Virus record (IMG/VR): IMGVR_UViG_3300044641_000963
Span: 1-23,971 of that record
DNA from: a virus
Length of the DNA stretch: 23,971 bases
Strand: one strand, 5' to 3'
Below are positions 2,892-23,971 of the stretch, in pieces; position 1 is the stretch's first letter, and the number at the start of each line of letters is the position of its first letter. Under the pieces are notes generated by a model that was given only the letters and a program-made list of their open reading frames with translations, had not been told where the DNA came from and searched no databases. The translations under genes and the position numbers were made by a program.

Positions 2892-2905
2892 TTATTTATT
2901 ATACC
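2892..2905 (-). promoter_or_regulatory. Extended -10 promoter, probably leaderless
   Basis: The 23-base gap after the Tal-like gene contains TGGTATAAT, an extended -10 element with TATAAT at 2898-2903. Exactly six bases then separate it from the ATG at 2891, so the expected transcription start falls on the A of the start codon. No convincing -35 hexamer is visible at 17-18 bases upstream, which extended -10 promoters can tolerate. There is no Shine-Dalgarno sequence for the following gene, which fits a leaderless message. Confidence 0.6.
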
Positions 2906-2914
2906 ATTACGCCA

Positions 2915-9700: not shown

Positions 9701-12700
9701 CCCAGTTTATAAAAGCGCCACACCATGCAATAAATCTATTTTTTAGATCGTAGGCTTTTTGTGCAAAGCTACCGAATATTGTGTCATTGCCTCTTCCTTC
9801 TTGATATCCTAGCATAGACTCTGCTGTTTTGATCATTGCGTCTGCTGTTCCCATAGTGCCAACTTTTCCACCATTTGCAAATCTGCCAGCGTTTAAGTTA
9901 TCTAAGAAACCTGATCCAAATTGTCTTTCAGCTTTTTCAACTGAACTTGCTCTAATTACATACTCTCCATTTGAAAGATAAGCTGGAATAGAATCAGATG
10001 TTCCTGTGCCTGGGCCTCTTACATCTCCACCTGGATTAAAGTGTTTAACTGCTCCTCCAGTGGCCATTTTAACTCTGGCACCCTTTGTTTTCTTCTGATC
10101 ATCCCATGAATAAACTTCTGTTCCAGAATCATTGCTTATGTAGTCTTTCCCATTCCAGCTAAATCTATACCATACAACATCATTAATGCTAACCATCTTT
10201 GAAGATCCAGAAGATCTTGCATTTTTAGCAGCCTCTATTGCATTTTTTCCTCTGCCTTGCTGAACTGTATCTTTTCCAAATTCAATAGTACCCTTTGGTG
10301 TGGGTGCCTTGTAACCTCCTAGTGCTTTCACAAGGTCATCACGAAGTTTAGATAGGGTTACTCCTCCAGTAATTAAAATTGCTAGCTTGCTTACAGCTGC
10401 AACATCTTTATCAAACTGGGAAAGAGAATCATTGTTTACTGTTCTATTTTCTGAAAGAATAGGTCTTCCCTGTGCATCAAATCCAGTTGGAGATCCAGTA
10501 GTTACTTTTTCAGGAACTTTTGGCTTTCCGTCTGAATTAAAATATCCTGGGAATGCATTTCTTATTGTTTCTGCAAGCAGGCCTGGTCCAGTCCCAGCCT
10601 TTTGCATTTCTTTTAGGAAACTAATAAGCTGTCTCTTAATATCTGCTTCTTCTTCAACTCTATCTTTACCTGAAAGAAGCTGTGCATTAACAGCTCTTGT
10701 ACTAAGCTCGTTATACTTTGACTGAAATTTTTCAAGAGTGTCTTTTATATCAGCTGCTACTGCAGAGTCATCTTGATTATTTTGGAAAACAGTATTCTTT
10801 TTATCTTGTGCGTCTTGTATTGCTTGTGCATCTTTTTCCAATGGTGCTTTTGCCTTATTAGCCGCATCTTCTATAGCCTTCTGGGCTAACTCTGATTGCC
10901 TATTTTGAGTAAGCTGATCTATATCAAGCTTTGCTTGATTTGCTGCAGCCATATCTCCACGAGAAACTGCATCTGCATATTTTATCTGTAGCTTTTGCAA
11001 TTCTAATGCATAGTTTGAAGCATCTTGAGTTGCCCTTAAGGCTTCTAGCTTTTTATTTTTCTCTTCATCGATAAGTTTGATCTTTTTTGCAATTACTTTT
11101 AATTCTTCCTGTGCACTTCTTTGAGAAGCTGCATTTGCTCTTTGAGCTGCTGCAGAAGTTGCAGCAATTGTTTTTTGAAGTTTAGATAAAGCAGATCCAA
11201 CAGTTGCGTATGTGGTAGCAGAATCAGCAGCTTGTGTTAGCTGGGAAATTCCTGTTCCGATTGCTGAAGTAAATCCAGCAAGTTTTGATGCTAGAGTAGA
11301 ATCTATTTTGCTTAGATCAATATTTATTCCAGCAGTAAAAAGTTTCCACTTTGCAAGTATTCCCTTTATAGTGTCTGATTCATTAATTATTCCTGCTAGC
11401 AAAGGTTGTGTTTTTTGAAGATTTAAGTATACGTCGCTACCTATTTCTTTATTCATGCCTGGGTTATTTGTTTCTGCTTTAGACATAACCATTTCATAAG
11501 CTTTAAACTCATCTATAACATTTCCAAGCTCATCTTTTGTTCCAACTAAAGATTTCGTTGCTTCAGAAAATACACCTATTAGTCCTTCAAAACCGTTTCC
11601 TACCTCTTTATACCAATCAGCAGTTCCTGTTCCTTTGCTTAAGGTGTTTACCAAATTTCCAACAGAAAATTCTGCCGCTGTAGCTTTATCTGTTATTGCT
11701 CCAAATTCTGTATTTGCAAGCAATTTGTATGCTTGAGAAGCTTTATTGCTATTTGCTAAAGCACCGTATATTTTTTTATTTGCTTCTTCAACGCTCATCC
11801 CAGCAGCAACCATTTGTGCTTTTTGATTATTAATTAATCTTTGTGTTTCTGCTGTTGTTTCTGATCTATTCAAGGATTCAATTACATCTTTTAATTCTTT
11901 TCCTTCTTCTTTTGCCTTCTTAAGTTCCTCTATTGATTGAGGTAGTCCAGGCATACCAATTGAGTTTCCTTCTGCCCCCTTGGCTGCTGCGGTTGCTAAT
12001 TTTTGTTTATCTATGTAGCCCTGCATGGTTTCTTTAAGATTAAAATACTTTATTCCAGCCTGCTCCGCAGCTTTAGCTGTCATAGAAAGTCCTATAGAGG
12101 CATCTTGCTGAGCATCCTTGTAATCTTTATAAAGTTTAAACGCTAAGCCTGCGGCACCGATTGCTGCTCCTATTAAGCCAAAGCCTTTAGCAAATCTTCC
12201 AATCATTGCTCCAAATCTTGCCATCTTGTTAAGACCAGTAGTTAATTCTTTTAATGCAGACCCTGCGGATTTTATCCCTGCACCCATTCTACCAAATGGA
12301 AGCATTGGAAGTATTGAAGTAGCAGCCATAAGACCCATTCCAGCGGACGCTCCTGACACTTCTTTTCCTAGGATGTTAACTTTTTCTTTGCCCATCAATG
12401 CCATGCCGCCCATTGATCCAGCCATTCCAATTCCCATTTGAGAACCCATACTCATACCATTGTATCTTCCAGGAACAGAAATTCCAGCTGCTTTGGCTTG
12501 CGCCTTAGTCATTGAAACATCTCTACCACCAGTTGACTCATTGTTTACAAGATACTCTGTTCTTCTCATGCCAATAGTTCCGACTTTTCTGGATTGAACT
12601 CCTTCTACACCAGTATCTTTATAGCCTCCAACAAATCCTGGTCCGAATAGTCCCTGCGATGGTGCTTGTCCAGCAGGATATCTAGCTGCAGCATAAGCAT

Positions 12701-15700
12701 TTTGTTCTCTTATGATTGCGTTTTGCGCTCTTTTGGCAAAATTTAATGTTGATGTAGCAGCTGATCTTACAGCACTGCTCATATTTGTAGCAGTATTCTT
12801 TATAGACTGAGTAATAACTCTTGCATTTATATCTATAGCTTTTGCTAGCTGCATAGAGTCTACCTTAATTGAATTTCCCATAGATCTAAAAGCTGCTGAT
12901 AAATATTGAGCTTTCATTGCTGCTGAATTTTTAAATGGGTCAAGCATGTTGTTAACCATTACTTGTCCAGGGTTATAGAAGCTTGTTGTTCCTGTTCTTA
13001 CCGCTTCTCTACCTAAGCCGCTTGTTAAAGCCTGCTGTCCACCTATCTGATGAGATCCTGCTCTAGATCTTGCTGCCGCTGCATCTCTTTCTCTTTGTGC
13101 ACGTTGTTCTGCTTCCCAGTTAGCTCTTGCAGCAGGGTTTCCTGGTCTGCGTGATCCATCTTTTTTAGGACCGTAAGCATATCTTCCTCGTCTGATTGGA
13201 CCGCCACCAACTGGTCCTCCAGCATTAAGATATTTTGGATTAGCATGCACGGCATGATATTTACTCCAATCAACCTCAATACCATCATCCAATCTTTTGA
13301 GCATTGCTTCATAAGGTGGTCTAAGATCTACAGGTAAACCATTTATTATTTTTACTAATTGTGGACGGGCATCTTCTAATATTTTCTTCATTTTTTTGCC
13401 GTATTTTTTTGGGCTCATTTTAGAAATTATTGGGGCAGTGTCACGTGCAAAATCTTTTCTTGCTCCACCCTTAACGGCAAGCAGATTGATCATTGCCTGC
13501 TTTTCCATAGAGTTCATTTCAGCAGCTTCTGCAAGACGAGTGTTACCAGATGCTCTAGGGAATACTCCAGATTGTCCGACATCTGGATTAAAATTACCAT
13601 ATACGTTTGATCTAGATAAATCTTTATTGTTTAAAAGAAGAGAGTTGGCAAGCTGCCTAAGCACTGTATCTTCATCCCATGGCACATTGGTGTTAGCAAA
13701 GCGTGGATCATAGTCTGATTCTAGTGCGAGCAGTTTGCTTTTTTTTCTTGGATCTAATGGGTTAGCAACCGTTCTAGCTCTTTGAACTGGAGATTCTATT
13801 CCAAAAAGATCTCTTGCAATTTGAGTGCCTATTGGCTCATGGGTTGCAACTACTTCATGAGGAACGCCTTTAACAAAAACCTTTTTATTACCAACCTTAT
13901 ACAATCCAGATACGCCAGGTACAGGATAACTCATTCCTGTGCTTGCAGAAATCTGATGTCCATATTCAGTTACTGGTGTATCAGCAAACTTTCCTAGAGC
14001 ATCTTTCGAACTCAATTCCCTTGCTTTTGCTAAAATCTTTAATTGCTTATCTGGTGCAAGTAACTTTAGTGCGGGAGCAATATTTCCATAATTTGATCTA
14101 CCTCTAGAAATATGTCCGCCTGGAATCATTCCGCCAGCATTCCATGCTCCCGATACAAGCATTGGTCTTGGAGGTCTTCCAGCAAGTATCCACTTTGATC
14201 TTTTTGCTGCTGCTTCTAAAAGCATACGTAAAGAATTTTTTTGATCTTTATTTGCTCTTACTACTCTGCCAGATTCCCAGTCAGCCTTGCTTTTAATTTT
14301 GCCATCATCTTGCAATGCTGCAAATATATCATCTACGCTTGCAAACTTGTCTAGGCCTGTTTTCTTTAATGCTGCAGCAAGGTTTGCTTTTGCATCTTCT
14401 GAACTTAAATTTAAAACATCTCTTGATAAACCTATAGTTTCAAGGGTGCTCATTACATTATTTATTCCAGCAGGTAATACAGCACCAACCCCCATATAAC
14501 CACTAGTTGTATATCCAACTAGATCTTTGCGTCTAAAATGTGCTTTATCGTGCAATCCTTGAATAGATGGAGACTTATCAGATGCATTTAAAAATGTTGT
14601 TGGAGCAATTGCTGCTATAAGATCATGCACTCCAGCAAATTTTTTATTTGCTAGCATTGCTTCTCTAACGTCATTTAATTTCCAATTTAAAGCTTTGCTA
14701 TTGCTTCTTGGGTATACAGTTTCTCCATCTGCATTTTTAATACCAGTTGCATCTTTAACACGTGGGACCATGCCATCTCTTTCTAGTCCCTGGACCTGCT
14801 TAATTCTTATTTTTACAAAATTGTCATCGCTTCCACCAGCTTGAGCTTTAGCTTTATCAAAATTGCTTGTTGCAATATTTATAGCTTTATCAATTGGTAA
14901 ATTATTGTGATAAGATAATTCAGCTGCGTCAAGCATGATCATTCTTACTCTTATATCATCTTCGTATCTTGGGTTATTAATAAACTTTAAATACTCTCTA
15001 TACTGTCTTTTAAAGTTTTCTTCTTTCATTCTAGCCTTAGCAGACTTAGACATTTTTTTACCGTACGAATTAATGCCACGCATGATCTGCCCGCCAAAAC
15101 TATATCCACTATTTGCTGCATCTACTGCTGCATATAGCTCAGGCATTCTTTGAATTTGAGGACCAAAAACTACTTCCCGTGGAGTAAGAGCTGCTGTAAT
15201 ATTTCCACCGTCATTTAAATATGTGCTTGGAGCCATTGCAACTAATGGGGCATTTGCTGGATCCATTGCAGCTTGCTGGTTCAAAACATATCCACCTAGT
15301 GGAACACTTCCCAATCTATCATCATAGTCTACTGAAGATGGTCCTGAAACAACTGTTTTGTTTGGACCAAATGATTCAATGTCTCCACCTATATTAAACT
15401 TAGGCATTCTTGTTGTTTGAATACTGTATGGTGCACCAAATGTTCTTACACCACGGAGTCTTCCAAACTCTTCCATGACGGAAGCATTTGTTTTTTTCTT
15501 ATACAAGTCTCTGAGTGTAAACTGTCCATTCGCATCAACAACTGGTTGATCCATCATTGGAGCTCTTGTTAAATCAATTGTTCTTCCTCGTCCAGCAGCA
15601 TACATACTTACTGCTGATCCCATATCTGCTTCTATCTGTGCATTAAGTGCAAGTATTCTTGCCTTTGCTTGATCAACAGTAATTTCTGCATTTCTCATTT

Positions 15701-18098
15701 GTTGAACAATTAATGCAGATTGAGTTGCTGCGCTATCTGCAAATCTTTGAGTTATTGGAAGAATATCATCGAATGTATCTAATAGTTCTCTGCTTACCGT
15801 TCCACCCATTGCAATTGTTTTCTTTAGATTTGCAACCTCCTGCTCTGTTTGCATTCCTAGAGTTGCCATCAATGCATGGAATTTAGCAGCCTCTGGTGCA
15901 ACAATTCCTGTAGATATTCCCTTTACACTTGTTAGGCCTTCAACATTTGGAAGTCTGTCATGCATATAAATTTGAGGAGTTCTAGATATTCCCCTATTTA
16001 CTGGTATAGCTCCTGGAACACCACCAAACAGAGTAGCTGGATTATTAAGATCCCTTGGTCTAATGTGAGACATTGCTCTAGTATTAGGATCTCCAACATA
16101 TGGATCATCAGGATCTACAACTCTTCTTCCATGAGCAGGAGCAACAATTGTATTTCCAGCAACAGTAGAGACTCCTGCGTTTACTGGAACTGCACTCTTC
16201 ATTGATGCTGCTTGAAGGTTTTGATAATCTAAAACAAGTTTTTGCAATGCATTGTGAAGAACTTGAGCTGCAGCTGCATCTGAATAAAATGCATTCTCAA
16301 CCATTTCTGCTGCTTTTTGAGCAGCAATAATTTCTGGAGTAAGCATCTTCCATCCATTTGCTTTCATAAAGAAAGATCTGAGCTGGACTATTCCCTTTGT
16401 TATATAACCAAAGAAGTTGGCAAGTACACCAGTTAACATAATTAGTGGGCCAACTAATGCTGTAAATCCTGCCATAAAAGTAAGAGCTTTTTTAATCGGT
16501 GATGGCAAATTAGTGAAGAATTCTAAAATCTTTGACGCAGCATTTATAAGCTTAGTTGCAACCCCAAGAAACTCATCTCCTACATCTGCAAGCTGTGCTT
16601 TTAAAGACTCCATAGCTCTTCTATACTTACCAGATGCAGACTCTGTAATCATTCCTAATTCTCGCTCTGCAATTCCCGCCAAATCCGAAGTGCTTGCCTT
16701 CATTAAATCCATAACCTGAAGCGTCTGGCTTCCTTCTTTTCCAAGGTTGTTTAGAAGTGCGCTCATTCTTGCAAACTGGAACTTACCAAACATTTGCTCA
16801 AGTGCTCTAGCTTTACTCAATGGGTCTAGGGTATTTAAAGCTTTTTGCAAATCTAGCAACATTCCAGTTGTATCACCAGTATTTTTTGCAACCAGCCCCA
16901 TTACATCTATGCCAAAATCTGACATTATACCGACTGTTTGTTTTGTTGGATTAATAAGAGAAGCTAAACCTGACTTTAATGCGTTTGCACCTTCAGATGC
17001 GTTAATTCCACCTTCTCTCATTGCAGTCATATAAAGAGCTAAGTCTTCGATGCTGCCTCCGAGTTGCTGTATAACTGGACCAGCTTTTGGAATTGCTTCT
17101 ACTAAATCGTTAAGTGTTGTAGAAGTTTGGTTTTCAACTGCGTTAAGAAAGTTAATTGATTCTGTAAGCTGTTGTGTATTTTGCTTAAAAGCTGTTTGAA
17201 TTGAAAGAGTAGCTTTCATTGCATCTTGTCTATCTACTTCTCCAAGGATTGCAAGTCTAGTGGTTTCTTCTATAGAGCCTAAAAGATCGTTGCCCATCTT
17301 TCCAGTTGCCGCAATATCAGCACCTAGTGCAATTGTATCTTTAAAAGAAGCTCCCATTGTTTGAGATAAAGATTTTGCTGTCTGTATAACTTCTTCTCTA
17401 ATTGCTTTTAAATCCGTTGCAGATGTTGCAGCTAGCCCACCGTAAACCTTTGTAAGTCTTACAAGCTCTTGGTCTGCTTCTCTAAATGCTTTTCCTGCTG
17501 CAGCACCAAACATTGTTAATGGAACTGTAAGTCCAACTGTCAGCTGACGACCTGCCCACTGGGTATTTTTACCCCAGTTAATTAAAGATCCTGCTCCTTC
17601 AGATAGTGCACGATTCATTATCTGAAGTTCCATGCGAGCTAGCTGTGCACTATTTTTTACAGCGTCTAATCCTCTTGGGATCATAACGTTGTACTGCATT
17701 AATCCTTGAGCATTTCTACCTAAAGGCTGGAGCACTGAGTTTTGAAGCATTACCTGCTCTTTGGCAAGCTCCCTTATCATTCCCTTTTGAGTTGTAGCGT
17801 GTTCTCTAAATGTCTGGAAGTAATTCTTAAGCTTTAATCTACCAGAGTCTAGGTTTTTACCAAACTTATCTACATCTGAATTAAGGTTTACAAAGTGACT
17901 AGAAAACTGTCCGCTTCCAGTTAGTGTATCTCTAAATAAGTTATTTGCTAATTTTGTTGAAGCAGATATGGCTCTATTAGATGCAAGAAGTTCTCTTTGT
18001 AATTGTTGGAGACTAGAACTAGCCCTGTGTACTTCAGACACAAGGCTAGATAAGTCGGCTTTGGCGACTATACTGGTTACAATTTGTTCGTCAGCCAC
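6795..18098 (-). CDS. Giant tape measure protein with CHAP, LysM and candidate kinase-like and GNAT-like modules
   Basis: This 3767-residue protein starts at GTG in a TAGTG overlap with the chaperone stop, behind GGAG at 6 bases. It sets tail length and is expected to enter the cell during DNA ejection. Residues about 205-480 match the TP901/PhageMin_Tail tape measure core ('EADQELVRLTKVYGG', 'IEDLALYMTAMREGG'). Hydrophobic segments lie near 535-565, 1885-1935, 1965-1990 and 3195-3220. A charged coiled coil spans about 2312-2436. The motif 'GPGTGTSDSIPAYLSNGEYVI' near 2690 is typical of phage tape measures. A CHAP peptidase (Cys2793, His2852, Glu2869) and a LysM domain (about 2930-2985) follow. 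Additional modules resemble a HipA-type kinase fold (about 1390-1620) and a GNAT (about 3385-3510); one at 1015-1320 is unrecognised. At about 0.15 nm per residue a wholly helical ruler predicts roughly 565 nm, an upper estimate if globular inserts do not count. Confidence 0.95.
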   Translation of the reverse strand: MADEQIVTSIVAKADLSSLVSEVHRASSSLQQLQRELLASNRAISASTKLANNLFRDTLTGSGQFSSHFVNLNSDVDKFGKNLDSGRLKLKNYFQTFREHATTQKGMIRELAKEQVMLQNSVLQPLGRNAQGLMQYNVMIPRGLDAVKNSAQLARMELQIMNRALSEGAGSLINWGKNTQWAGRQLTVGLTVPLTMFGAAAGKAFREADQELVRLTKVYGGLAATSATDLKAIREEVIQTAKSLSQTMGASFKDTIALGADIAATGKMGNDLLGSIEETTRLAILGEVDRQDAMKATLSIQTAFKQNTQQLTESINFLNAVENQTSTTLNDLVEAIPKAGPVIQQLGGSIEDLALYMTAMREGGINASEGANALKSGLASLINPTKQTVGIMSDFGIDVMGLVAKNTGDTTGMLLDLQKALNTLDPLSKARALEQMFGKFQFARMSALLNNLGKEGSQTLQVMDLMKASTSDLAGIAERELGMITESASGKYRRAMESLKAQLADVGDEFLGVATKLINAASKILEFFTNLPSPIKKALTFMAGFTALVGPLIMLTGVLANFFGYITKGIVQLRSFFMKANGWKMLTPEIIAAQKAAEMVENAFYSDAAAAQVLHNALQKLVLDYQNLQAASMKSAVPVNAGVSTVAGNTIVAPAHGRRVVDPDDPYVGDPNTRAMSHIRPRDLNNPATLFGGVPGAIPVNRGISRTPQIYMHDRLPNVEGLTSVKGISTGIVAPEAAKFHALMATLGMQTEQEVANLKKTIAMGGTVSRELLDTFDDILPITQRFADSAATQSALIVQQMRNAEITVDQAKARILALNAQIEADMGSAVSMYAAGRGRTIDLTRAPMMDQPVVDANGQFTLRDLYKKKTNASVMEEFGRLRGVRTFGAPYSIQTTRMPKFNIGGDIESFGPNKTVVSGPSSVDYDDRLGSVPLGGYVLNQQAAMDPANAPLVAMAPSTYLNDGGNITAALTPREVVFGPQIQRMPELYAAVDAANSGYSFGGQIMRGINSYGKKMSKSAKARMKEENFKRQYREYLKFINNPRYEDDIRVRMIMLDAAELSYHNNLPIDKAINIATSNFDKAKAQAGGSDDNFVKIRIKQVQGLERDGMVPRVKDATGIKNADGETVYPRSNSKALNWKLNDVREAMLANKKFAGVHDLIAAIAPTTFLNASDKSPSIQGLHDKAHFRRKDLVGYTTSGYMGVGAVLPAGINNVMSTLETIGLSRDVLNLSSEDAKANLAAALKKTGLDKFASVDDIFAALQDDGKIKSKADWESGRVVRANKDQKNSLRMLLEAAAKRSKWILAGRPPRPMLVSGAWNAGGMIPGGHISRGRSNYGNIAPALKLLAPDKQLKILAKARELSSKDALGKFADTPVTEYGHQISASTGMSYPVPGVSGLYKVGNKKVFVKGVPHEVVATHEPIGTQIARDLFGIESPVQRARTVANPLDPRKKSKLLALESDYDPRFANTNVPWDEDTVLRQLANSLLLNNKDLSRSNVYGNFNPDVGQSGVFPRASGNTRLAEAAEMNSMEKQAMINLLAVKGGARKDFARDTAPIISKMSPKKYGKKMKKILEDARPQLVKIINGLPVDLRPPYEAMLKRLDDGIEVDWSKYHAVHANPKYLNAGGPVGGGPIRRGRYAYGPKKDGSRRPGNPAARANWEAEQRAQRERDAAAARSRAGSHQIGGQQALTSGLGREAVRTGTTSFYNPGQVMVNNMLDPFKNSAAMKAQYLSAAFRSMGNSIKVDSMQLAKAIDINARVITQSIKNTATNMSSAVRSAATSTLNFAKRAQNAIIREQNAYAAARYPAGQAPSQGLFGPGFVGGYKDTGVEGVQSRKVGTIGMRRTEYLVNNESTGGRDVSMTKAQAKAAGISVPGRYNGMSMGSQMGIGMAGSMGGMALMGKEKVNILGKEVSGASAGMGLMAATSILPMLPFGRMGAGIKSAGSALKELTTGLNKMARFGAMIGRFAKGFGLIGAAIGAAGLAFKLYKDYKDAQQDASIGLSMTAKAAEQAGIKYFNLKETMQGYIDKQKLATAAAKGAEGNSIGMPGLPQSIEELKKAKEEGKELKDVIESLNRSETTAETQRLINNQKAQMVAAGMSVEEANKKIYGALANSNKASQAYKLLANTEFGAITDKATAAEFSVGNLVNTLSKGTGTADWYKEVGNGFEGLIGVFSEATKSLVGTKDELGNVIDEFKAYEMVMSKAETNNPGMNKEIGSDVYLNLQKTQPLLAGIINESDTIKGILAKWKLFTAGINIDLSKIDSTLASKLAGFTSAIGTGISQLTQAADSATTYATVGSALSKLQKTIAATSAAAQRANAASQRSAQEELKVIAKKIKLIDEEKNKKLEALRATQDASNYALELQKLQIKYADAVSRGDMAAANQAKLDIDQLTQNRQSELAQKAIEDAANKAKAPLEKDAQAIQDAQDKKNTVFQNNQDDSAVAADIKDTLEKFQSKYNELSTRAVNAQLLSGKDRVEEEADIKRQLISFLKEMQKAGTGPGLLAETIRNAFPGYFNSDGKPKVPEKVTTGSPTGFDAQGRPILSENRTVNNDSLSQFDKDVAAVSKLAILITGGVTLSKLRDDLVKALGGYKAPTPKGTIEFGKDTVQQGRGKNAIEAAKNARSSGSSKMVSINDVVWYRFSWNGKDYISNDSGTEVYSWDDQKKTKGARVKMATGGAVKHFNPGGDVRGPGTGTSDSIPAYLSNGEYVIRASSVEKAERQFGSGFLDNLNAGRFANGGKVGTMGTADAMIKTAESMLGYQEGRGNDTIFGSFAQKAYDLKNRFIAWCGAFINWAAKKSGVDLSSMIWTPGGAQSFMKSGKWTTMNPRRGDLAFMDFPGDGVNRISHVGLVSNVLGKNLVSTIEGNTSGSGSQRSGGAVLRKVRKYNLKNAPIVGFGRPSYKPVDDVKYGYGTQEYYSADEAKSDYENERYTVNRGDTLSGIAAKYGITVKQLMEMNPQLKDPKYMGGSRIFAGTKVSIKKFAEGGKVVNSLTNSGNWISGPITVPRQKKPGVPYSRSGKPIGNPFGQYWGELSRFIGPRSPGMDIWGGTEIPGLNFSGDVPQHSDYMHQMLEQPRKPFTSPGMGIDRDPIRLAGSGASMGGIGNGAYGLGPLMFHAGGPVGHTHSSAPHDLGMRSFGLSRKQTEAEKMRLQLTPLKDENQKQKARKNKNLSYYESKIDDPINNYSEGFGKVFTRSPLGILAPLTSLASDLLGVYFQGKTPTFGKDGIGKALNPTSYESDVSSLMKAMIHPFGEIAKGSATKGDWANAGLNFVPGVGALKGVNTLRARSAAYNLINKATLDLPTEARVSLIPNATLRSNFVALKKADKVDTPEFAKARYELALSDAIRAARRNNFTSLPDLKNTTAANLIEENKNLPKIIEESIKVNGKDYIFRFEKADILPTDAKYIDKFIEGLKEGRVTSEGFGAGGMHQAEILDPVTKKQMSWINYDPVTGHISYRGTHPEYRWLHLSEALYNKAVSITRIKHSPTLTDMGRPSALRIGGFMADDPYYGATSITGIKSYLDTLMKLKKSKKAKPSTGEPRKGIGSWENNHITETVSSAPATPRYPIDEFNDRNSIIGWQFDRTADLDSTLSAALRPETIRWFGSTYRTSANFPYGPGGYIEPAALPELQRIIEAEKLARQSEASRGSWGISRGDGWANGGLVQNFSNSSLKNLGLPMFENGINMVPANMLAMLHKNEAVIPANMNPFNPNATAAASGSVYNINVELNGTNVTAKDVALEIRNEMRLKEMAAGVNRKVGS
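7575..7950 (-). other. GNAT-like module inside tape measure (about residues 3385-3510)
   Basis: Within the tape measure protein, the segment from 'VNGKDYIFRFEKAD' to 'GRPSALRIGG' has the order of strands and helices of a small acetyltransferase. A two-strand meander (AEILDPVTKKQMSWINYD) leads into 'GHISYRGTHPEYRWLHLSEAL', the position of beta-4 and the acetyl-CoA loop. It ends with 'HSPTLTDMG', which resembles the HS..RT..G ending of actinophage GNAT-like proteins. The canonical R-x-x-G-x-G/A loop is replaced by Arg3471-Trp-Leu-His-Leu-Ser, so cofactor binding may be lost. The assignment is inference from pattern. Confidence 0.45.
9135..9860 (-). other. CHAP peptidase plus LysM cassette inside tape measure
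   Basis: Residues about 2748-2900 of the tape measure form a CHAP (NlpC/P60-like) fold. 'AWCGAFINWAAKKSG' holds the nucleophile Cys2793, 'HVGLVS' holds His2852, and 'TIEGNT' holds Glu2869 and Asn. This is the complete catalytic set in the usual order. A LysM peptidoglycan-binding domain follows at about 2930-2985 ('YTVNRGDTLSGIAAKYGI', 'LMEMNP'). Wall-degrading domains in tape measures are known to open peptidoglycan locally during DNA entry. The intact residues suggest this one is active. Confidence 0.85.
13170..13220 (-). repeat. Gly-rich linker repeat, copy 3 (tape measure residues 1627-1643)
   Basis: This linker reads GGPVGGGPIRRGRYAYG. It lies directly after the candidate kinase-like module and shares the GG-x-[IV]…RGR..YG pattern with copies at residues 1322-1338 and 1002-1013. 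Confidence 0.6.
13240..13930 (-). other. HipA/kinase-fold-like module inside tape measure (about residues 1390-1620)
   Basis: The segment starts with 'SGLYKVGNKKVFVKGVPHE', which looks like a kinase N-lobe: beta strands with Lys1410 in the VxVK position. A helix 'IGTQIARDLFGIESPVQRA' follows, as in HipA-like and related atypical kinases where a GlxxP-type turn follows the helix. 'LANSLLLNNKDLSRSNVYG' supplies a catalytic-loop-like N-K-Asp1493-x4-Asn1498, the same D-x4-N spacing as in protein kinases. A helical C-lobe runs to about residue 1610. No clear DFG-type Asp is seen after the loop (GVFPRASGN stands there), so activity is doubtful. It lies between linker repeats 2 and 3. The call is inference from motifs only. 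Confidence 0.4.
14085..14135 (-). repeat. Gly-rich linker repeat, copy 2 (tape measure residues 1322-1338)
   Basis: This linker reads GGMIPGGHISRGRSNYG. It separates the unrecognised module (about 1015-1320) from the kinase-like module. It aligns with copy 3 without gaps over 17 residues at GG, G, the I-x-RGR tract and YG. Confidence 0.6.
14150..15055 (-). other. Unrecognised module inside tape measure (about residues 1015-1316)
   Basis: The segment between linker copies 1 and 2 begins MSKSAKARMKEENFKRQYREYL. It is mainly helical and charged, with 'SYHNNLPIDKAINIATSNFDKAK', 'LNWKLNDVREAML', 'HDLIAAIAPTTFLNASD' and a Gly-rich 'VGYTTSGYMGVGAVLPAGIN'. It does not resemble the core ruler, which is Ala/Gln/Lys-rich. 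I cannot assign a family. Confidence 0.4.
15060..15095 (-). repeat. Gly-rich linker repeat, copy 1 (tape measure residues 1002-1013)
   Basis: This linker reads GGQIMRGINSYG, a shorter copy of the linker at 1322-1338 and 1627-1643. It lies immediately before the unrecognised module. Confidence 0.5.
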
Positions 18099-18765
18099 TA
18101 ATTACTCCTAGAGTATCCTAACCCTGCGCCAATTCCAAATCCAGCTTTCGCTGCAAAGGGCCCTTGCAAAGCAACAACATCATCTGCTGATGCATTTATT
18201 CCAAGTGCTCTTCTTTGGATATCTTCAAAGGTAGAACCTTTTTCTTTTTCTTCTACACCATCATCTAACTGTATTCCTTTTAGTGACGCTGCAAACTTTC
18301 TTTGGTTATGCTCTTTCTCATTCATCGCTGTTATGGTTTGAACCAATTCTGGCATTGATAAATTTTCTTCTAGTTCCTCATAATTCTTCCAGTGACCCAG
18401 AAGAAAAACTTGGCCTTCTAAAGCGGCTAAATCTAGTTCTGACCAGCCAGTACCGCTGCCGCTATTAGGTTTGGGTCGTCCATCTTAATTCCTCCGCAAA
18501 CTTCAAGGATTCTATTAATTGTTGGAACATCTAATGCATCTTCTAGCTTGTCAAGGTCTGCAACTAGATCTGGAAGCTGTGTTTCTAATGCTACTCCGCA
18601 TGCTTCAACTAAAATTCCAAGGGTTGCTGTCTCGTCTTCTGCATCTTGAACTTTCTTAATTACTTCCATAAACTTTCGTAGCTGCTTGATTGATAATGGC
18701 TTGAGCTTTACTTTAGCTCCGCTTTGTAGTTCAATCTCTTCTACATCATATACTGTTGTTGCCAA
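18098..18765 (-). CDS. Tail assembly chaperone, long frameshifted product (gpGT-like)
   Basis: This product arises by -1 ribosomal slippage at CCCAAAC (18469-18475). The first 99 codons come from the short chaperone frame (18765 to 18469). Reading then resumes with the base at 18469 and continues for 123 codons to the stop at 18098-18100, giving 222 residues. The -1 frame is fully open from the slip site: PNSGSGTGWSELDLAALEGQ, then a helical charged tail ending GLGYSRSN. The ATG at 18355 inside this frame has no good ribosome site and is probably not a separate start. In siphoviruses the long form coats the tape measure protein and recruits tail-tube subunits. The stop overlaps the tape measure start by one base. 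The frameshift is read directly from sequence and is not demonstrated. Confidence 0.88.
18433..18765 (-). CDS. Tail assembly chaperone, short product (gpG-like)
   Basis: This 110-residue protein starts at a TTG (18765) behind a perfect AAGGAGG with a 5-base spacer. It comprises a short beta N-terminus (VYDVEEIELQSGAKVKLKPLSIKQLRKFM) followed by helices and ends LAGQN. 'VKLKPLSIKQLRKF' is typical of the G-type chaperone of lambda-like and actinophage tails. It lies between the major tail protein and tape measure genes. Most ribosomes should make this form, and a minority slip at CCCAAAC to make the 222-residue form. It has its own promoter about 25 bases upstream. Confidence 0.88.
   Translation of the reverse strand: MATTVYDVEEIELQSGAKVKLKPLSIKQLRKFMEVIKKVQDAEDETATLGILVEACGVALETQLPDLVADLDKLEDALDVPTINRILEVCGGIKMDDPNLIAAAVLAGQN
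18469..18475 (-). promoter_or_regulatory. -1 ribosomal frameshift slippery heptamer CCCAAAC
   Basis: The zero-frame codons are C CCA AAC, so the heptamer fits X-XXY-YYZ exactly, with re-pairing at CCC and AAA. It lies 11 codons before the short-product stop. A GGAGGA sequence ends 14 bases upstream, close to the spacing of the stimulatory Shine-Dalgarno-like element of dnaX. The downstream -1 frame stays open for 123 codons. Confidence 0.85.
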
Positions 18766-18780
18766 TTTATCCTCCTTAAG

Positions 18781-18822
18781 GATCGTCTAAATTATTATAG
18801 CATAACCATTATACGGATACAA
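18781..18822 (-). promoter_or_regulatory. Promoter for tail chaperone / tape measure transcription unit
   Basis: An extended -10 TGCTATAAT lies at 18794-18802 (hexamer 18794-18799). TTGTAT lies 17 bases upstream at 18817-18822 as a partial -35. The predicted start near 18787 leaves a leader of about 22 bases containing AAGGAGG. It directly follows a hairpin terminator and should restart transcription. Confidence 0.65.
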
Positions 18823-18853
18823 GAGCAAAGCCCCCAATTTCTTGGGGGCTTTG
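18822..18853 (-). terminator. Rho-independent terminator after major tail protein gene
   Basis: A perfect 12-bp stem CAAAGCCCCCAA / TTGGGGGCTTTG (18826-18853) surrounds a 4-base loop. On the minus strand the U-rich tail is short (CTTTGCTCTTG), so it may leak. It shares its core arms with the terminator near 22905. Confidence 0.85.
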
Positions 18854-18870
18854 ATATTAATTATTAATAT
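18854..18870. repeat. Perfect AT palindrome
   Basis: ATATTAAT-T-ATTAATAT is a perfect inverted repeat between the major tail protein stop codon and the terminator hairpin. Made only of A and T, it could be chance or a protein or RNase target in the 3' leader. No function can be read from it. Confidence 0.5.
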
Positions 18871-18872
18871 AA

Positions 18873-19634
18873 TTAAATTGATAGAACGCGGTCAATAATC
18901 TTACCGTATTCTGAACCAGCGTGAGCTGAGTCACCTGATGGTAGAAGACGGAATGTTACTGGGAATGTTGTTGCTGCTGTACGAGCCAAAGAGAACTGTG
19001 ACTGTTCAACAGACAAAACGCGACGTGCATAATATACACGCTCAGTTGCTGATGCTTCTGAAGTTGGAGCCTGTCCAACTGCAATTAGCTGACGCTCTGT
19101 TGGAGCTGCACCTAGTGCACCTGCTTCCAAACCTAGTGTGTCAACTGCTGTTGAACCAGTTCCTGTTGATGTAAGTGTTGATCCCTTTTGACCAAATACT
19201 GCAAGAACGTTCTCTAGAGTACCTTCTGCCATTTCTGTTGAGATTTGAACCATCATCGCAGACTTGAACAGCTTAGCTGTATCTAGCAACTGGTCAACAG
19301 TTACTGAGTCAAATGTTGGCTGGTAGCTGATCTGAAGACCGTTATTTGTGTAACCTACGTTGCGGTAAGCTCCACCGATTGCTGGTGTTGATTCTGAAGG
19401 TGTTGCTGTTTGAGTAGCACCTGTTGTTGTTAAAACTTTATTTAGTGTTGTAGTGTAAGACTCTCCTGATGAGAATGCTGGTACAAAACGGTTCTTTGAT
19501 GCAACAAAAGCGTTTGCTTCGCCTGCATCCATGCTTGAATCGTAACCAGATACTGTTGAATCTTCTACTGACAAGAATAGCGGTGATGCACCAACAAGAA
19601 TGTTTCTTGCGTCACCTGTATTTTGATATGCCAT
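18873..19634 (-). CDS. Major tail (tube) protein
   Basis: This 253-residue protein begins MAYQNTGDARNILVGASPLF. I place the start at the ATG at 19634 because AGGAGG (19645-19650) precedes it by 10 bases. The upstream in-frame ATG at 19658 would put that site inside the gene. The sequence is Ser/Thr/Gly-rich with beta-type segments (GLQISYQPTFDSVTVDQLLD, VYYARRVLSVEQSQFSL, TTFPVTFRLLPSGD), as expected of a tube subunit. It lies between the tail terminator and chaperone genes, and has its own promoter and terminator. Codon use is distinct (CGT/CGC for Arg, more C-ending codons), as expected of a very highly expressed protein. No extra Ig-like domain is evident. Confidence 0.85.
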   Translation of the reverse strand: MAYQNTGDARNILVGASPLFLSVEDSTVSGYDSSMDAGEANAFVASKNRFVPAFSSGESYTTTLNKVLTTTGATQTATPSESTPAIGGAYRNVGYTNNGLQISYQPTFDSVTVDQLLDTAKLFKSAMMVQISTEMAEGTLENVLAVFGQKGSTLTSTGTGSTAVDTLGLEAGALGAAPTERQLIAVGQAPTSEASATERVYYARRVLSVEQSQFSLARTAATTFPVTFRLLPSGDSAHAGSEYGKIIDRVLSI

Positions 19635-19651
19635 AATTGTATTGCCTCCTG

Positions 19652-19665
19652 ATTTCATATGAAAT
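19652..19665. repeat. Inverted repeat in the major tail protein leader
   Basis: ATTTCATATGAAAT is a perfect 14-base palindrome ending one base before the AGGAGG ribosome site. As RNA it could form only a weak 5-bp stem with a 4-base loop. It might be an operator or translational element, or chance. Confidence 0.4.
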
Positions 19666-19701
19666 TAATATATATATTTTGGCTGGCTAGGCCCTTTCCT
19701 C

Positions 19702-19737
19702 TGTTCTAATTTTACTCTACTACCTTATAAAAGGCAA
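19702..19737 (-). promoter_or_regulatory. Promoter for major tail protein gene
   Basis: TTGCCT (19732-19737) and TAAAAT (19709-19714) are separated by exactly 17 bases. The -35 begins two bases after the upstream stop codon. The predicted leader is about 68 bases, longer than the other leaders here, and includes the palindrome at 19652-19665. Confidence 0.6.
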
Positions 19738-19738
19738 A

Positions 19739-20248
19739 CTAGGCAAATCTGCCTTTGCCATCTAGTATTCTTGAGTACTTTATCTCTAATACTACATCTG
19801 CTGCATAGAATCCTTGGATTTCTTCTGATGGGGCTGTAGATGATATATCTGCTACTTGAATACTATGGAACTTGAATTTATCTGATAATCCCGCCCATTT
19901 ATTAACATCTCTGGCAGACTCATCCATTCTTCTAAATTCATCAGTTAGGAAGTTTCTTATTTCAACAATATCCAGGATCTCTGGTGAATATAGGGTTAAT
20001 AGGATTTGCTCGCAACATATCATCCAGTTATTCTCATAGGACATGCCTACTTTATCATAGACTATATGCTTCTTGCCGCTCAAGAATTGATTCATTTCTG
20101 GCTGTTGCTGAACTGGGACTATTGGCACAAGTGCCTCTCCTAGGTTATCTGAATAGTAATCATTCTCATCAAATATGCCCAGCCATGTAAGTCTGTTCCA
20201 TAAGAACTTTCTTATTTCAAACATTGAATCTAATTTATAATTAGCCAT
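19739..20248 (-). CDS. Probable tail terminator / tail completion protein
   Basis: This 169-residue protein has its start overlapping the previous stop by 8 bases, behind GAGG. It lies between the neck protein gene and the major tail protein gene, the usual place of the gpU-like tail terminator that caps the tube at the head end. The sequence has helix-strand alternation: 'MFEIRKFLWNRLTWLGIF' at the N-terminus, 'NNWMICCEQILLTLYSPEILDIVEIRNFLTDEFRRMD' in the middle, and a terminal strand 'FYAADVVLEIKYSRIL'. This fits the small alpha/beta fold of tail terminators. No residue motif is diagnostic. Confidence 0.6.
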   Translation of the reverse strand: MANYKLDSMFEIRKFLWNRLTWLGIFDENDYYSDNLGEALVPIVPVQQQPEMNQFLSGKKHIVYDKVGMSYENNWMICCEQILLTLYSPEILDIVEIRNFLTDEFRRMDESARDVNKWAGLSDKFKFHSIQVADISSTAPSEEIQGFYAADVVLEIKYSRILDGKGRFA

Positions 20249-21032
20249 TTACGAACCTCGCAAATGCTGCTGATGTAGCAGCCTCTGCTTCATTTGCCAG
20301 CTGATTTGGCGAGAAGCTATATTTAACTGTTTTAACTTGTGCTGGAACTCCTAATGCTCTAGACAATGATGAATTAAATAGTCTTTGGAATCCCGATTTT
20401 TTTATAGACAGATTAACTAGGTTGCCAGTAAAGAAGTATCTATATTGTGAAAAGAATGCATTTTTGGTTGCCGCTCCGCCTGGTTTTTTAACAGTAACTG
20501 ATTGCCCCTTTGGCATGAACACGGTGTATCCATCTATATCAAACACAAGCCTTTCTGAAAATCTTGGAGCAATAACTACGGTCTTTCCCTGCTCCATTAT
20601 TTCAGCTTTTTTTACAAAGACATGTTTATTTTTAGAATTTTCAGAAGGTACAAAGGATTTGGAATCGGTCAATTCATAATTAACTTTTAAAGATAATCCA
20701 TCTGCTGGAAGTTGTTTTAACTTAAATAGTCTTGCCTCGTCTTGGCCAACCCTGTCCCACTCATAAACGTGGTGAAAAGATTTTGGGGAAGTTCTTGCTT
20801 TTGCATCAATATAATCGCCAAAATCAACTTGCAATTGATCAAAGATTACATTTCTAAATGCTGATTGAAATTGAGCATTTGATGCTAGCTTTGCCATTAC
20901 ATTTGTTTTATAGAATAGTGCTGCAGATATCTGTGCTACTGTGCTGTCTCTTAGTGCACCACTGACAGGCTTATTGGCCATAAGATTTACCAATCCGCTT
21001 GCTGCTTTAATGGCTAAAATTTCAGATGTCAA
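20241..21032 (-). CDS. Head-tail neck protein, HK97-gp10-like
   Basis: The frame extends to an ATG at 21086, but that overlaps the preceding gene by 65 bases with no ribosome site. I prefer the TTG at 21032, with GGAG 10 bases upstream and an 11-base overlap, giving 263 residues beginning (M)TSEILAIKAASGL. The segment 'SPKSFHHVYEWDRVGQDEARLFKL' is typical of neck / tail-component proteins of actinobacteriophages near the HK97 gp10 group. The rest is beta-rich (VIAPRFSERLVFDIDGYTVFMPKGQSVTV). Its place between the head-closure-like and tail-terminator-like genes supports a role at the head-tail joint. The start choice is uncertain. Confidence 0.65.
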   Translation of the reverse strand: MTSEILAIKAASGLVNLMANKPVSGALRDSTVAQISAALFYKTNVMAKLASNAQFQSAFRNVIFDQLQVDFGDYIDAKARTSPKSFHHVYEWDRVGQDEARLFKLKQLPADGLSLKVNYELTDSKSFVPSENSKNKHVFVKKAEIMEQGKTVVIAPRFSERLVFDIDGYTVFMPKGQSVTVKKPGGAATKNAFFSQYRYFFTGNLVNLSIKKSGFQRLFNSSLSRALGVPAQVKTVKYSFSPNQLANEAEAATSAAFARFVNG

Positions 21033-21447
21033 TTTGCTGGTTCTCCGCTCTTTGTAATGATGAGTTATAACCAACAACATTACCAAAAGGATCTGATATC
21101 GGTGTAGTTCCTACAACATCAAAAACAGTGGGAGTGTCGCTTGGATAATTTAATTCGTACCAGATAGCATTTCCGTCTGCGTCTCTTATGTTTTTAATCT
21201 TATCTCTTGGGGTTAATCTTTCAGATGTTCTAGCTTCTATGTACTGGTTGTTTGAATACTTGTTTCCAAATTTTTGATTATCATTAGATCTGTTTCGACT
21301 TTCAGTAATTACTCCTCTAGCATAACAATCTAATGTTTTAATATAGTAAAACTTTCTAATGATGGCACCAGTATCTTTATCCTGCTGCTCTTGCTGCCTA
21401 TAGATATCCATCTTCATAGACATTAAGCCATCAACTATCTCAAACAT
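21022..21447 (-). CDS. Head closure protein (head-tail connector)
   Basis: This 141-residue protein starts in a TAATG overlap with the adaptor gene stop. The C-terminal half contains 'RLTPRDKIKNIRDADGNAIWYEL' followed by 'DTPTVFDVVGTTPISDPFG' and 'SSLQRAENQQIDI'. This combination of a beta-barrel with a VFEVVG-type strand and a helical end is seen in SPP1 gp16-like / head completion proteins of actinobacteriophages. Such proteins seal the portal-adaptor stack after packaging. It has the expected size and stands right after the adaptor. Confidence 0.7.
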   Translation of the reverse strand: MFEIVDGLMSMKMDIYRQQEQQDKDTGAIIRKFYYIKTLDCYARGVITESRNRSNDNQKFGNKYSNNQYIEARTSERLTPRDKIKNIRDADGNAIWYELNYPSDTPTVFDVVGTTPISDPFGNVVGYNSSLQRAENQQIDI

Positions 21448-22430
21448 TACACAATTACCATTTGAGTTACAACATAATCTTCAAGCAGCTTATCTGCATA
21501 CGCTGAGCCAGTACCAGTAAATGCATCAGATGAGTACTCAAAATCCCAATCTGTTGTTGATATTTTACTAACATACCTATCTCGCCATAGTCTATCCTTG
21601 GCAAAATACGTACGCATAATCTCTATAGCTGCCTGCTCAACCTCATCTGGAATATATTCCCAACCAAATACTGCATGAACATCGTAGTACTTTCCTCTTC
21701 TAAAAATATCTGGGCTTAAGTCATGAATTGAAGGAGGAACCATTCCATTTGCAACATAGACATCTCTATCTAAAAGACTTTCTTGGTTTATTCTGATTCC
21801 AAATCCACTTGTTGTAGTTTTTATTTCATAACCTAGATAATTAATATTATTAAGATTATCTACTAGAATTTGATCATTTTGGCTAAGAGAATGCAGCTCA
21901 TGTATTTTGCTAGTAAAAGAAAGAGTGTCTGAGTCGCTTCCCATTATTGTAATTGTGTCATGGAATAAATAGAATTTTTGACCAGTATAATTTTCAATCA
22001 TTTTTCTTGCATACTTTTCTGCCATTCTTAATTCATGATAGCTTTTAAAGTTAGGGTCTGAAGCTTCTGCTCCTAAGCCTAAGTCTTCTATAACTTCCGC
22101 TAGGTTTACATAAGGCTTAACAATATCACAATACGTTGTCAAGTACTGAGAAACACCTTCTATTGTAAACTGCCACACAAGCTTAAGTTTTTTTAACCTA
22201 TTAGTTAGTGGTAGCGGAAGATATAGAGCATAAGTCCCAGGGTTAGACTCTTCTGGAACTGCAGTAAATATACCAACCTGTTGAGTGGGGCTAATTGCTG
22301 GAACAACGGTATCATCCTCAGTTATGTCATATACAACAACAACAACTGGGTTTGAGTTATCTAGTACCTCGCCTCTCCAAGAAATTCTTGTCTTAATTGG
22401 AGCGTTTGTATCTATGTATATCTCTGCCAT
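21447..22430 (-). CDS. Head-tail adaptor with extra N-terminal beta domain
   Basis: This 327-residue protein has residues about 105-327 resembling an HK97 gp6 / SPP1 gp15-like adaptor. Helices include 'LAEVIEDLGLGAEASDP' and 'YHELRMAEKYARKMIENYTGQKF'. The end has 'GWEYIPDEVEQAAIEIMRTYF', 'DRLWRDRYVSKISTTDWDFEYSSDAF' and 'AYADKLLEDYV', the usual C-terminal layout. Residues 1-100 are a separate beta sandwich (IKTRISWRGEVLDNSNPVVVVVYD, TYALYLPLPLTNRLKKLKLVWQF) similar to Ig-like or BppU-N-like domains. Adaptors are often 100-150 residues, so this is a two-domain version. The gap to the previous stop is 9 bases and no good ribosome site is visible, so re-initiation is likely. Confidence 0.75.
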   Translation of the reverse strand: MAEIYIDTNAPIKTRISWRGEVLDNSNPVVVVVYDITEDDTVVPAISPTQQVGIFTAVPEESNPGTYALYLPLPLTNRLKKLKLVWQFTIEGVSQYLTTYCDIVKPYVNLAEVIEDLGLGAEASDPNFKSYHELRMAEKYARKMIENYTGQKFYLFHDTITIMGSDSDTLSFTSKIHELHSLSQNDQILVDNLNNINYLGYEIKTTTSGFGIRINQESLLDRDVYVANGMVPPSIHDLSPDIFRRGKYYDVHAVFGWEYIPDEVEQAAIEIMRTYFAKDRLWRDRYVSKISTTDWDFEYSSDAFTGTGSAYADKLLEDYVVTQMVIV

Positions 22431-22439
22431 GTGTTAGGC

Positions 22440-22838
22440 TTAGTTGTAGTACTCCTGTACTTCTCTAGGTGTAGCCAATCTAAACCCTTCCTCCTTATCA
22501 AAAATTTCTTGAGCCACATCTGGCTTCATTGCTACGAATGGATGATCTCTAGTGAATGTAAATCCTAAAGCATCATATCTAGCATTTGGGCGATCCATTT
22601 TTACAAGGATCATATCTTCATCAAGCTTTTGATTTGGATCTAGGCGAGGAAGAATTTCATCTGAATCTTCTTTTGCGTTCTCTATGTTTTTAAGTGTACC
22701 TTGGTAAACTGACCAAGTTACTCCTTCTTCTGTTAGGGCTGCAATAACATCTGCTTTATTTTTTAGTCCATCAACATCAACTGCGAAGTCCGCTGCTAAT
22801 GCCTTTAGATCTTTGACCTTAAGTGTGTCAAATGACAT
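22440..22838 (-). CDS. SAP/HeH-domain small protein after the capsid gene
   Basis: This 132-residue protein starts at an ATG with AAAGGAG 7 bases upstream. Residues 5-38, 'LKVKDLKALAADFAVDVDGLKNKADVIAALTEEG', form a helix-extended-helix SAP/Rho-N-like motif, which usually binds nucleic acid. A charged linker (ENAKEDSDEILPRLDPNQ) leads to a C-terminal segment with 'ARYDALGFTFTRDHPFVAMKPDVAQEIFDKEEGFRLATPREV'. Similar small genes stand directly downstream of the capsid gene in many actinobacteriophages. Their exact role is not established; a head-joining or DNA-contact function is inferred. It has its own promoter. Confidence 0.75.
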   Translation of the reverse strand: MSFDTLKVKDLKALAADFAVDVDGLKNKADVIAALTEEGVTWSVYQGTLKNIENAKEDSDEILPRLDPNQKLDEDMILVKMDRPNARYDALGFTFTRDHPFVAMKPDVAQEIFDKEEGFRLATPREVQEYYN

Positions 22839-22858
22839 ATATATACTCCTTTGGTATG

Positions 22859-22894
22859 TATATAAATTATAGCACTATAAAATTAAAATGAAAA
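22859..22894 (-). promoter_or_regulatory. Promoter for head-tail joining gene unit
   Basis: TGCTATAAT (22866-22874) carries a perfect extended -10. TTTTCA at 22889-22894 lies 17 bases upstream and matches four of six consensus -35 bases. It overlaps the T-rich tail of the terminator before it. The predicted leader is about 21 bases and holds AAAGGAG. Confidence 0.7.
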
Positions 22895-22919
22895 GCCCCC
22901 AAAATTAATTGGGGGCCTT
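22887..22919 (-). terminator. Rho-independent terminator after major capsid gene
   Basis: GCCCCCAA (22895-22902) pairs with TTGGGGGC (22909-22916) across a 6-base loop, followed on the minus strand by TTTTCATTTTAATTTT. The short distance after the capsid stop codon and the U-rich tail make this a strong candidate. Confidence 0.88.
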
Positions 22920-22940
22920 TCCAGCAAGTTATTTCTTAAA

Positions 22941-23971
22941 TTAAGAAGCAACCTTAACGTCTTTAACGACAACCCATGCGTCTGCCTGCTCAATTTGGGT
23001 TCCAACACGAGTATACATTGTATATTCGATTGAGTCCTTCTTTGGCCAGAAGAATCGGTAAACAGTTACGTCGCGCTTGATACCAATAACTACGTTATTA
23101 GGGAATGTCAAGTGAACGTCTCCGTGATCTCCTGTTGGAGTTGCATATGAACCAGTCTGAGTTTCCTTAAGTAGCGGAACTTCAACAATTGGAATACCAA
23201 ATGCGAATGGAGCTACGAAACCTGCTGGGCCACCTAGGCCTGGCTGGTCTCCACGGATAATGCTTGAAGCAATATCTTGTGGGTTAATGTTCTGGATGTC
23301 TCTTGATGTTGAATACAAGTAATCTTGTATAAGGTTTGAGCCTGAAAGGAAGCGTAGGTCTGTACGACGCTGCTTGTACTTACGTGGCATTGCCTTAAGA
23401 GCCTTGTTGAAGATGTCACGAGATATTGCTGCACCCGCTCCAGCTACTACGTGGCCATTTGCCTTTGCAATCTTAACAACACCATCAAATGACTTGTATA
23501 GCAAGTCTCCTGTGTCAGCTGTGTTACCGTTAAGAACTACGTCCTCAAGGTCGTTACCAGCCTGTGTTGCCATAAGTCTTGCAATGTGATCTTCTAGATC
23601 TGCACCTTCAATGTTGTCTTCTAGAGACTCAGTTGAAAGCTCCCAATCTAGACGAAGCTTTTTTGTTGTGAGAGAAATCTTTGAGAACTGTACAGCTGCA
23701 TTTCCGCTGTTTAGGTTATCTGCTTCAGCTGCAAGCTTCATAAGCTTTGTGCCAACGCCAATACGATCAATCTCTGTAGTGTCAGCTCTCATTCGAACTG
23801 TACGTGCTACTTTACCGATTACTGTTGCATCGAACATGTAATCGAGGAATCTTGCGGATTGCTCAGGATTGAGCAAGCCTCCCTTACCCTCGGAACCTAC
23901 GTGAATTCCGTCGGTAGGGTTTGCTGCGCCAGTCATTCCACCTGTTAGTGTTGTGCCTGCTTCAGCTGCTT
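22941..23971 (-). CDS. Major capsid protein (HK97 fold), 5' end beyond window
   Basis: The frame is open to the right edge, giving 342 visible residues. The ATG at 23936 has no spaced ribosome site, and the residues before it (AAEAGTTLTGGMTG) read as protein, so the true start is probably outside. The chain has the features of a capsid subunit: an N-terminal arm segment (LNPEQSARFLDYMFDATVIGKVARTVRM), then E-loop-like beta strands. These are followed by 'LSTESLEDNIEGADLEDHIARLMATQAGNDLEDVVLNGN' (the long spine-helix region), 'DLRFLSGSNLIQDYL', and a final 'FGIPIVEVPLL…NNVVIGIKRDVTVYRF'. This agrees with phage HK97-type capsid proteins. Codons favour CGT/CGC, AAG and AAC, as in the tail-tube gene, and a terminator follows. 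Confidence 0.88.
   Translation of the reverse strand, partial: AAEAGTTLTGGMTGAANPTDGIHVGSEGKGGLLNPEQSARFLDYMFDATVIGKVARTVRMRADTTEIDRIGVGTKLMKLAAEADNLNSGNAAVQFSKISLTTKKLRLDWELSTESLEDNIEGADLEDHIARLMATQAGNDLEDVVLNGNTADTGDLLYKSFDGVVKIAKANGHVVAGAGAAISRDIFNKALKAMPRKYKQRRTDLRFLSGSNLIQDYLYSTSRDIQNINPQDIASSIIRGDQPGLGGPAGFVAPFAFGIPIVEVPLLKETQTGSYATPTGDHGDVHLTFPNNVVIGIKRDVTVYRFFWPKKDSIEYTMYTRVGTQIEQADAWVVVKDVKVAS

Follow-up and report, generated by a model that had tools for sequence, protein, structure and literature searches.

The late head-tail region of a 23,971-base viral fragment (IMG/VR record IMGVR_UViG_3300044641_000963, 38% G+C; this whole stretch is called the window below) carries a strong hairpin followed by an extended -10 promoter box behind the major capsid gene and again behind the tail-tube gene. 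This region is probably split into separate messages by two terminators and two restart promoters. An earlier note, made from the sequence alone, had placed two hairpins and two TGCTATAAT boxes after these genes, and all four elements are indeed found there, on the minus strand (Table 1). The window phage is a member of an actinobacterial-phage group, in which the elements, their positions, their conservation and the covariation of their stems can be observed directly.

According to the proposed wiring, a TTTGCCTT-N16-TATAAT promoter located outside the window would give rise to a protease-capsid message that would stop at intrinsic terminator A, and an extended -10 promoter (TGCTATAAT) fused to this terminator would restart transcription for the neck genes. 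A second promoter of the TTTGCCTT class, associated with a structured 5' leader, would give rise to a one-gene tail-tube message stopping at terminator B, after which a second extended -10 promoter would restart transcription for the tail assembly chaperones, the tape measure and the remaining tail genes. Owing to the terminators, low-copy genes would not be driven by the two high-output messages; they would instead be expressed from the restart promoters, at a level of their own. Comparison of relatives is what suggests that the hairpins terminate transcription and that the boxes initiate it; their relative strengths, the efficiency of termination and a lower transcription of the downstream genes are inferences. 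As dozens of relatives keep this layout while the hairpin sequences change, it looks like real wiring for the excess of capsid and tail-tube proteins.

Predicted terminators and restart promoters behind the capsid and tail-tube genes

Hairpins A and B, with minimum free energies of -23.7 kcal/mol (z -4.4 versus shuffles) and -21.7 kcal/mol (z -5.0), are the strongest terminator-like sites within the scanned region. Both display the stable GC-rich hairpin expected of intrinsic terminators, with compensatory changes where the hairpin is conserved; the U-rich tract is good at A (UUUUCAUUUUAAUUUU) and interrupted at B (CUUUGCUCUUGU). The Rfam matches over hairpin B (Phe_leader and, on the opposite strand, a Brucella small RNA) fall below the gathering scores and reflect only the C-run/G-run terminator hairpin.

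The GCCCCCAA/TTGGGGGC arms are identical at both loci of the window. Across the window, GCCCCCAA matches four times, each time as an arm of one of these hairpins (expectation 0.40; four matches were not attained in any of 100 shuffles), and exact TGCTATAAT is present at the two relay sites only (about 0.6 expected on both strands under a first-order Markov model). The near-identity claimed for the two loci thus holds for the arm core and the -10 box and fails for the loops (UUAAUU at A, GAAA at B), for the distance from hairpin end to TG (16 nucleotides at A versus 24 at B) and for the -35 regions. With one mismatch allowed, TGCTATAAT occurs at chance level (11 found, 13.9 expected), so that a statistical excess of this box in the window was rejected. 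Its frequency being weak evidence, the argument rests on position and conservation.

For this purpose, the 150 bases that follow the stop codons of the capsid and tail-tube genes were sampled in all retrieved relatives. A strong hairpin and TG(C/A)TATAAT follow the capsid gene in 66 of 66 distinct IMG/VR stretches. After the tail-tube gene, 53 distinct stretches were obtained, among which four seeming exceptions (L015, L041, L044 and L081) were set aside as artefacts read from an upstream frame; a hairpin and TG(C/T)TATAAT are present in 46 of the 49 genuine ones, and the other three carry TGATACAAT (two) or AGTATAAT (one). In the alignment of site B (40 sequences), TTGT, TG and TATAAT are invariant and the spacer between -35 and -10 is gapless though its bases vary. 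In that of site A (42 sequences), the distance from the U-tract to the -10 box is constant and the -35 falls inside the 3' strand of the hairpin and the U-tract; terminator and promoter therefore appear to be fused at this site. A -35 box is found about 17 nucleotides upstream at both sites, as an invariant TTGTA-type sequence at B and as a TTTTCA-like one at A. Furthermore, the stems covary: at site A, one pair is C-G in 29, U-A in 7 and U-G in 6 sequences, and at site B, 8 of the 11 consensus pairs are changed on both sides with pairing kept. This conservation in relatives puts both relay sites far beyond chance, and comparison across the group thus supports a predicted terminator and restart promoter after both genes, as the earlier note had suggested.

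In ten Streptomyces and two Rhodococcus phages, both gaps likewise contain a strong hairpin with a promoter-like box behind it (TGCTATAAT, TGATATAAT, TGCTACAAT, CGCTATAAT, TGGTAAACT and similar), the hairpin arms being unrelated to those of the window. In Vibrio, Pseudomonas and Rhodobacter phages of the same capsid family, a hairpin with a U-run follows the capsid and tail genes, and the TG-TATAAT box was not found there. As these distant phages keep the hairpin without the box, the terminators look older or more widespread than the restart promoters.

The box is not confined to the relays. TGnTATAAT occurs about 20 times per relative of about 115 kb, scattered over several parts of the genome, and follows, within about 45 nucleotides, 3 of 7 strong intergenic hairpins in one such relative and 3 of 9 in another, an association that speaks for the proposed wiring given so few boxes per genome. 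The relays behind capsid and tail tube are those that all relatives examined have in common. Two more arrangements of a hairpin followed by TGGTATAAT are located around 41469 and 56900 in L162/G001, among the relatives of about 115 kb, on the opposite strand and outside the structural genes, and the same is found in G003. Another copy of TGGTATAAT (window 2898-2906, minus strand; G001 position 74714) begins exactly 15 nucleotides before the ATG of a gene encoding 115 amino acids (2544-2891), a spacing identical in the relatives of about 115 kb, and TGATATAAT likewise precedes a 587-amino-acid gene upstream of the portal gene. Given this spacing, leaderless mRNAs can be predicted for both genes.

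A predicted shared upstream promoter class and a putative tail-tube leader RNA

The two abundant proteins share a predicted promoter class that is distinct from that of the restart promoters. In regions upstream of the tail-tube gene, its -35 is present in 126 of 131 cases and lies exactly 16 nucleotides from the -10 in 121. Directly before the protease gene, one gene upstream of capsid, TTTGCCTT-N16-TATAAT/TAAAAT was found in relatives (its position is outside the window) in 68 of 74 regions, with 16 nucleotides in all 68. In the relatives of about 115 kb, good matches to this class before genes are essentially limited to the protease-capsid unit and the tail tube. A capsid-specific promoter was rejected, since the protease-capsid gap of relatives contains no conserved one. 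From where the TTTGCCTT-class promoters sit, the capsid message looks bicistronic (protease-capsid) and the tail-tube message monocistronic. The idea that each of the two proteins is isolated on a high-level message of its own thus stands for the tail tube, with its own conserved promoter and leader and a predicted single-gene message, and has to be amended for the capsid, which would share its message with the protease from a promoter before the latter. Within the protease gene, about 130 nucleotides upstream of the capsid start (near 3290 in L184; also in L062), a conserved GACC-UUGGCG-GGUC was observed, with conservation at third codon positions and paired changes (GATC..GATC, GACG..CGTC); it is possibly an RNA element overlapping the coding sequence.

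The predicted tail-tube message begins close to a small hairpin with the loop CUAGCCA, which is present in 67 of 67 distinct tail-tube upstream regions of IMG/VR relatives. Across 25 distinct sequences, including those of Streptomyces phages, all four stem pairs are changed on both sides, and the covariation score is 0.49, versus 0.154 +/- 0.035 after shuffling and no more than 0.136 after sliding of the partner. Of the 80 readable places that a scan of the collection with the pattern AGAGGAA-N4-7-CTAGCCA returned, 56 are located ahead of a tail-tube gene, with 2-5 pairs in the stem; among the 24 located elsewhere, 21 have 0-1 pairs and the one with 5 is a contig end. Rfam covariance models gave no match over the leader at E-values up to 1. 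As the folding energy of the hairpin in the window is unremarkable (-4.5 kcal/mol, z 0.06), the case for the leader rests on covariation and position. A pairing of the CUAGCCA loop with the AUGGC of the start codon was rejected, being lost where the start is AUGACA (Wofford, Tomas).

Protection of the mRNA 5' end or translational control are plain guesses as to the function of this leader. We give about even chances to a broader proposal, in which capsid and tail-tube production would depend on a promoter class of two members reserved for it (TTTGCCTT-N16-TAWAAT), the two terminator-restart relays and an undescribed cis-acting tail-tube leader RNA that would control message stability, translation or termination.

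Weighing of alternative explanations

Several observations weigh against the proposed wiring. The U-tract of hairpin B is broken up (CUUUGCUCUUGU). Promoter A, with a poor -35 that shares sequence with the terminator, would depend on its extended -10. TGnTATAAT also precedes genes elsewhere in the genome and is therefore not late-specific. No terminator was found to separate the tail-tube promoter from the neck unit or the protease from the portal; transcripts from upstream may therefore enter both messages, and isolation would concern their 3' side only. Finally, a search of the open-licence literature yielded no transcriptome for Stanwilliamsviridae.

The earlier note had also suggested a duplicated or converging control cassette. 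Duplication of one cassette, or gene conversion between its copies, might be indicated by the identical GCCCCCAA/TTGGGGGC arms and the common TGCTATAAT of the window genome. The arms vary, however, independently between the loci: for 33 distinct combinations from loci with both sites, the purine run of the 3' arm is the same at A and B in 15, versus 15.4 expected with partners shuffled (p 0.69), which gives no sign of concerted evolution. Moreover, loops, spacers, -35 boxes, flanks and distances differ consistently by locus, the similarity being limited to short functional cores, and the arms of the Streptomyces homologues are unrelated between the two sites as well as to those of the window. 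A duplicated or gene-converted cassette thus appears most improbable, and the likeness of the loci is likely that of two independent C-run/G-run terminators with a common extended -10.

Instead of terminating, the hairpins could serve in RNA processing or stabilise 3' ends, all inside a single long late transcript, the TGCTATAAT boxes being weak or unused. Processing of late messages is common among phages, and both the interrupted U-tract of hairpin B and the missing terminator upstream of the tail-tube promoter would fit with it. We regard this explanation as unlikely, since it leaves unexplained the invariant, gapless promoter boxes right behind each hairpin and since classical U-tailed hairpins occupy these positions in the Vibrio and Pseudomonas relatives. 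It is also rather improbable that the terminators are conditional, i.e. that an antiterminator or the 5' element of the tail-tube message regulates readthrough and that the relays switch at set times instead of insulating permanently. The 5' end of a transcript is where antitermination RNAs acting in cis, HK022 put for example, are located, and the conserved structured element has this position in the predicted tail-tube transcript. This leader has, however, no Rfam match, and regular readthrough at terminator B would leave no need for the restart promoter behind it. Separate messages, with two terminators and two restart promoters, are thus the reading that we retain.

Gene context, known systems and significance

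The phage genes of the window sit on the minus strand in the order capsid, 132-amino-acid protein, head-tail adaptor, neck and tail completion, tail tube, tail assembly chaperones, tape measure and distal tail, an order shared with Streptomyces phages belonging to Stanwilliamsviridae. Compared with the annotated proteins of these phages, the major capsid protein is about 62% identical and the tail-tube protein about 45%; hundreds of IMG/VR contigs are closer to the window than these phages are. The start of the tail-tube gene was set at the conserved ATG (19634) rather than at the longer open reading frame start (19658). A slippery heptamer, CCCAAAC, occupies 18475-18469 (minus strand), correctly phased and shortly before the chaperone gene ends, and the -1 frame is open to 18098, which would correspond to the usual G/GT-type programmed frameshift. 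The tape measure gene comprises 3767 codons in the window versus 2801 in its homologue of the relative G001; the window copy therefore appears to hold large inserts.

Table 1. Position of the predicted control elements and of the genes in the window
Feature	Position	Strand	Description
Major capsid protein gene	22941..23969	-	phrog_1623, E 4e-86; extends past the window end
Hairpin A (protease-capsid message; predicted intrinsic terminator)	22890..22921	-	GAAAGGCCCCCAA-UUAAUU-UUGGGGGCUUUUC, then AUUUUAAUUUU
Putative restart promoter A	22866..22894	-	TTTTCA (22894-22889), 17 nucleotides, TATAAT in the extended -10 TGCTATAAT (22874-22866)
132-amino-acid gene, first after restart A	22440..22838	-	phrog_9487; Shine-Dalgarno AAAGGAG
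Head-tail adaptor	21447..22430	-	phrog_442; synteny with annotated TunaTartare and Wakanda
Neck and tail completion genes	21022-21447, 20241-21086, 19739-20248	-	Assigned by synteny; in the restart-A unit
Predicted tail-tube promoter	19709..19738	-	TTTGCCTT-N16-TAAAAT; of the class found before protease-capsid in relatives
Leader element, 5' end of tail-tube mRNA	19680..19701	-	GAGGAA, small hairpin, loop CUAGCCA (19690-19684); near the predicted +1
Tail-tube (major tail) protein gene	18873..19634	-	phrog_2175; about 45% to annotated major tail proteins
Hairpin B (tail-tube message; predicted terminator)	18826..18853	-	CAAAGCCCCCAA-GAAA-UUGGGGGCUUUG, then CUCUUGU
Putative restart promoter B	18794..18822	-	TTGTAT (18822-18817), 17 nucleotides, TATAAT (18799-18794); extended -10 TGCTATAAT (18802-18794)
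Tail assembly chaperone, first gene after restart B	18433..18765	-	Synteny with annotated chaperones
Tape measure gene	6795..18098	-	Synteny; downstream within the restart-B unit

Stanwilliamsviridae (TunaTartare, NootNoot, Wakanda and others) share with the window the hairpin and promoter-like box after the capsid and tail-tube genes, and most of them carry the CUAGCCA leader before the tail tube. Members of Loccivirinae and Ankus also display TTTG(C/G)CTT before the protease. The arm sequences of this family are, however, unrelated to those of the window and some of its -10 boxes are weaker (CGCTATAAT, TGGTAAACT). The protease promoter has diverged in NootNoot, Wofford, Tomas and Mandalore, and Mandalore is devoid of the exact leader loop.

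Terminators at both places have a precedent in the Bacillus phage SPP1, in which predicted Rho-independent terminators lie directly after the capsid gene 13 (8775-8815, the gene ending at 8777) and where the tail-tube gene 17.1* finishes (11,255-11,304, the gene ending at 11,279), no late promoter related to PL1 having been found there (PMC6316719). Unlike SPP1, the window phage has a conserved putative restart promoter after each terminator and a promoter class common to both abundant genes. In the T7-like phage LUZ100, a local promoter and a strong terminator immediately downstream set capsid expression (PMC10134795). The window phage resembles such a T7-type unit by its predicted terminator directly after the capsid gene and differs from it on three points: no conserved promoter directly precedes capsid in relatives, in which capsid would share its message with the protease; the tail-tube gene is treated like the capsid gene; and the promoters look sigma70-like, whereas the capsid promoter of LUZ100 is phage-specific. 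Given SPP1 and LUZ100, terminators after these genes count as already known, and what appears new is the complete conserved layout with its restart promoters, the shared promoter class and the leader RNA.

From a single gene cluster, siphophages have to produce capsid and tail-tube subunits by the hundreds and neck and tape-measure proteins in small numbers, and the basis of this difference at the level of promoters and terminators has seldom been resolved. Here, comparison alone leads to a complete and testable diagram, made up of two putative high-output promoters, two terminators, two restart promoters and one leader RNA. This wiring diagram is conserved from uncultivated phages to isolated Streptomyces phages that can be grown.

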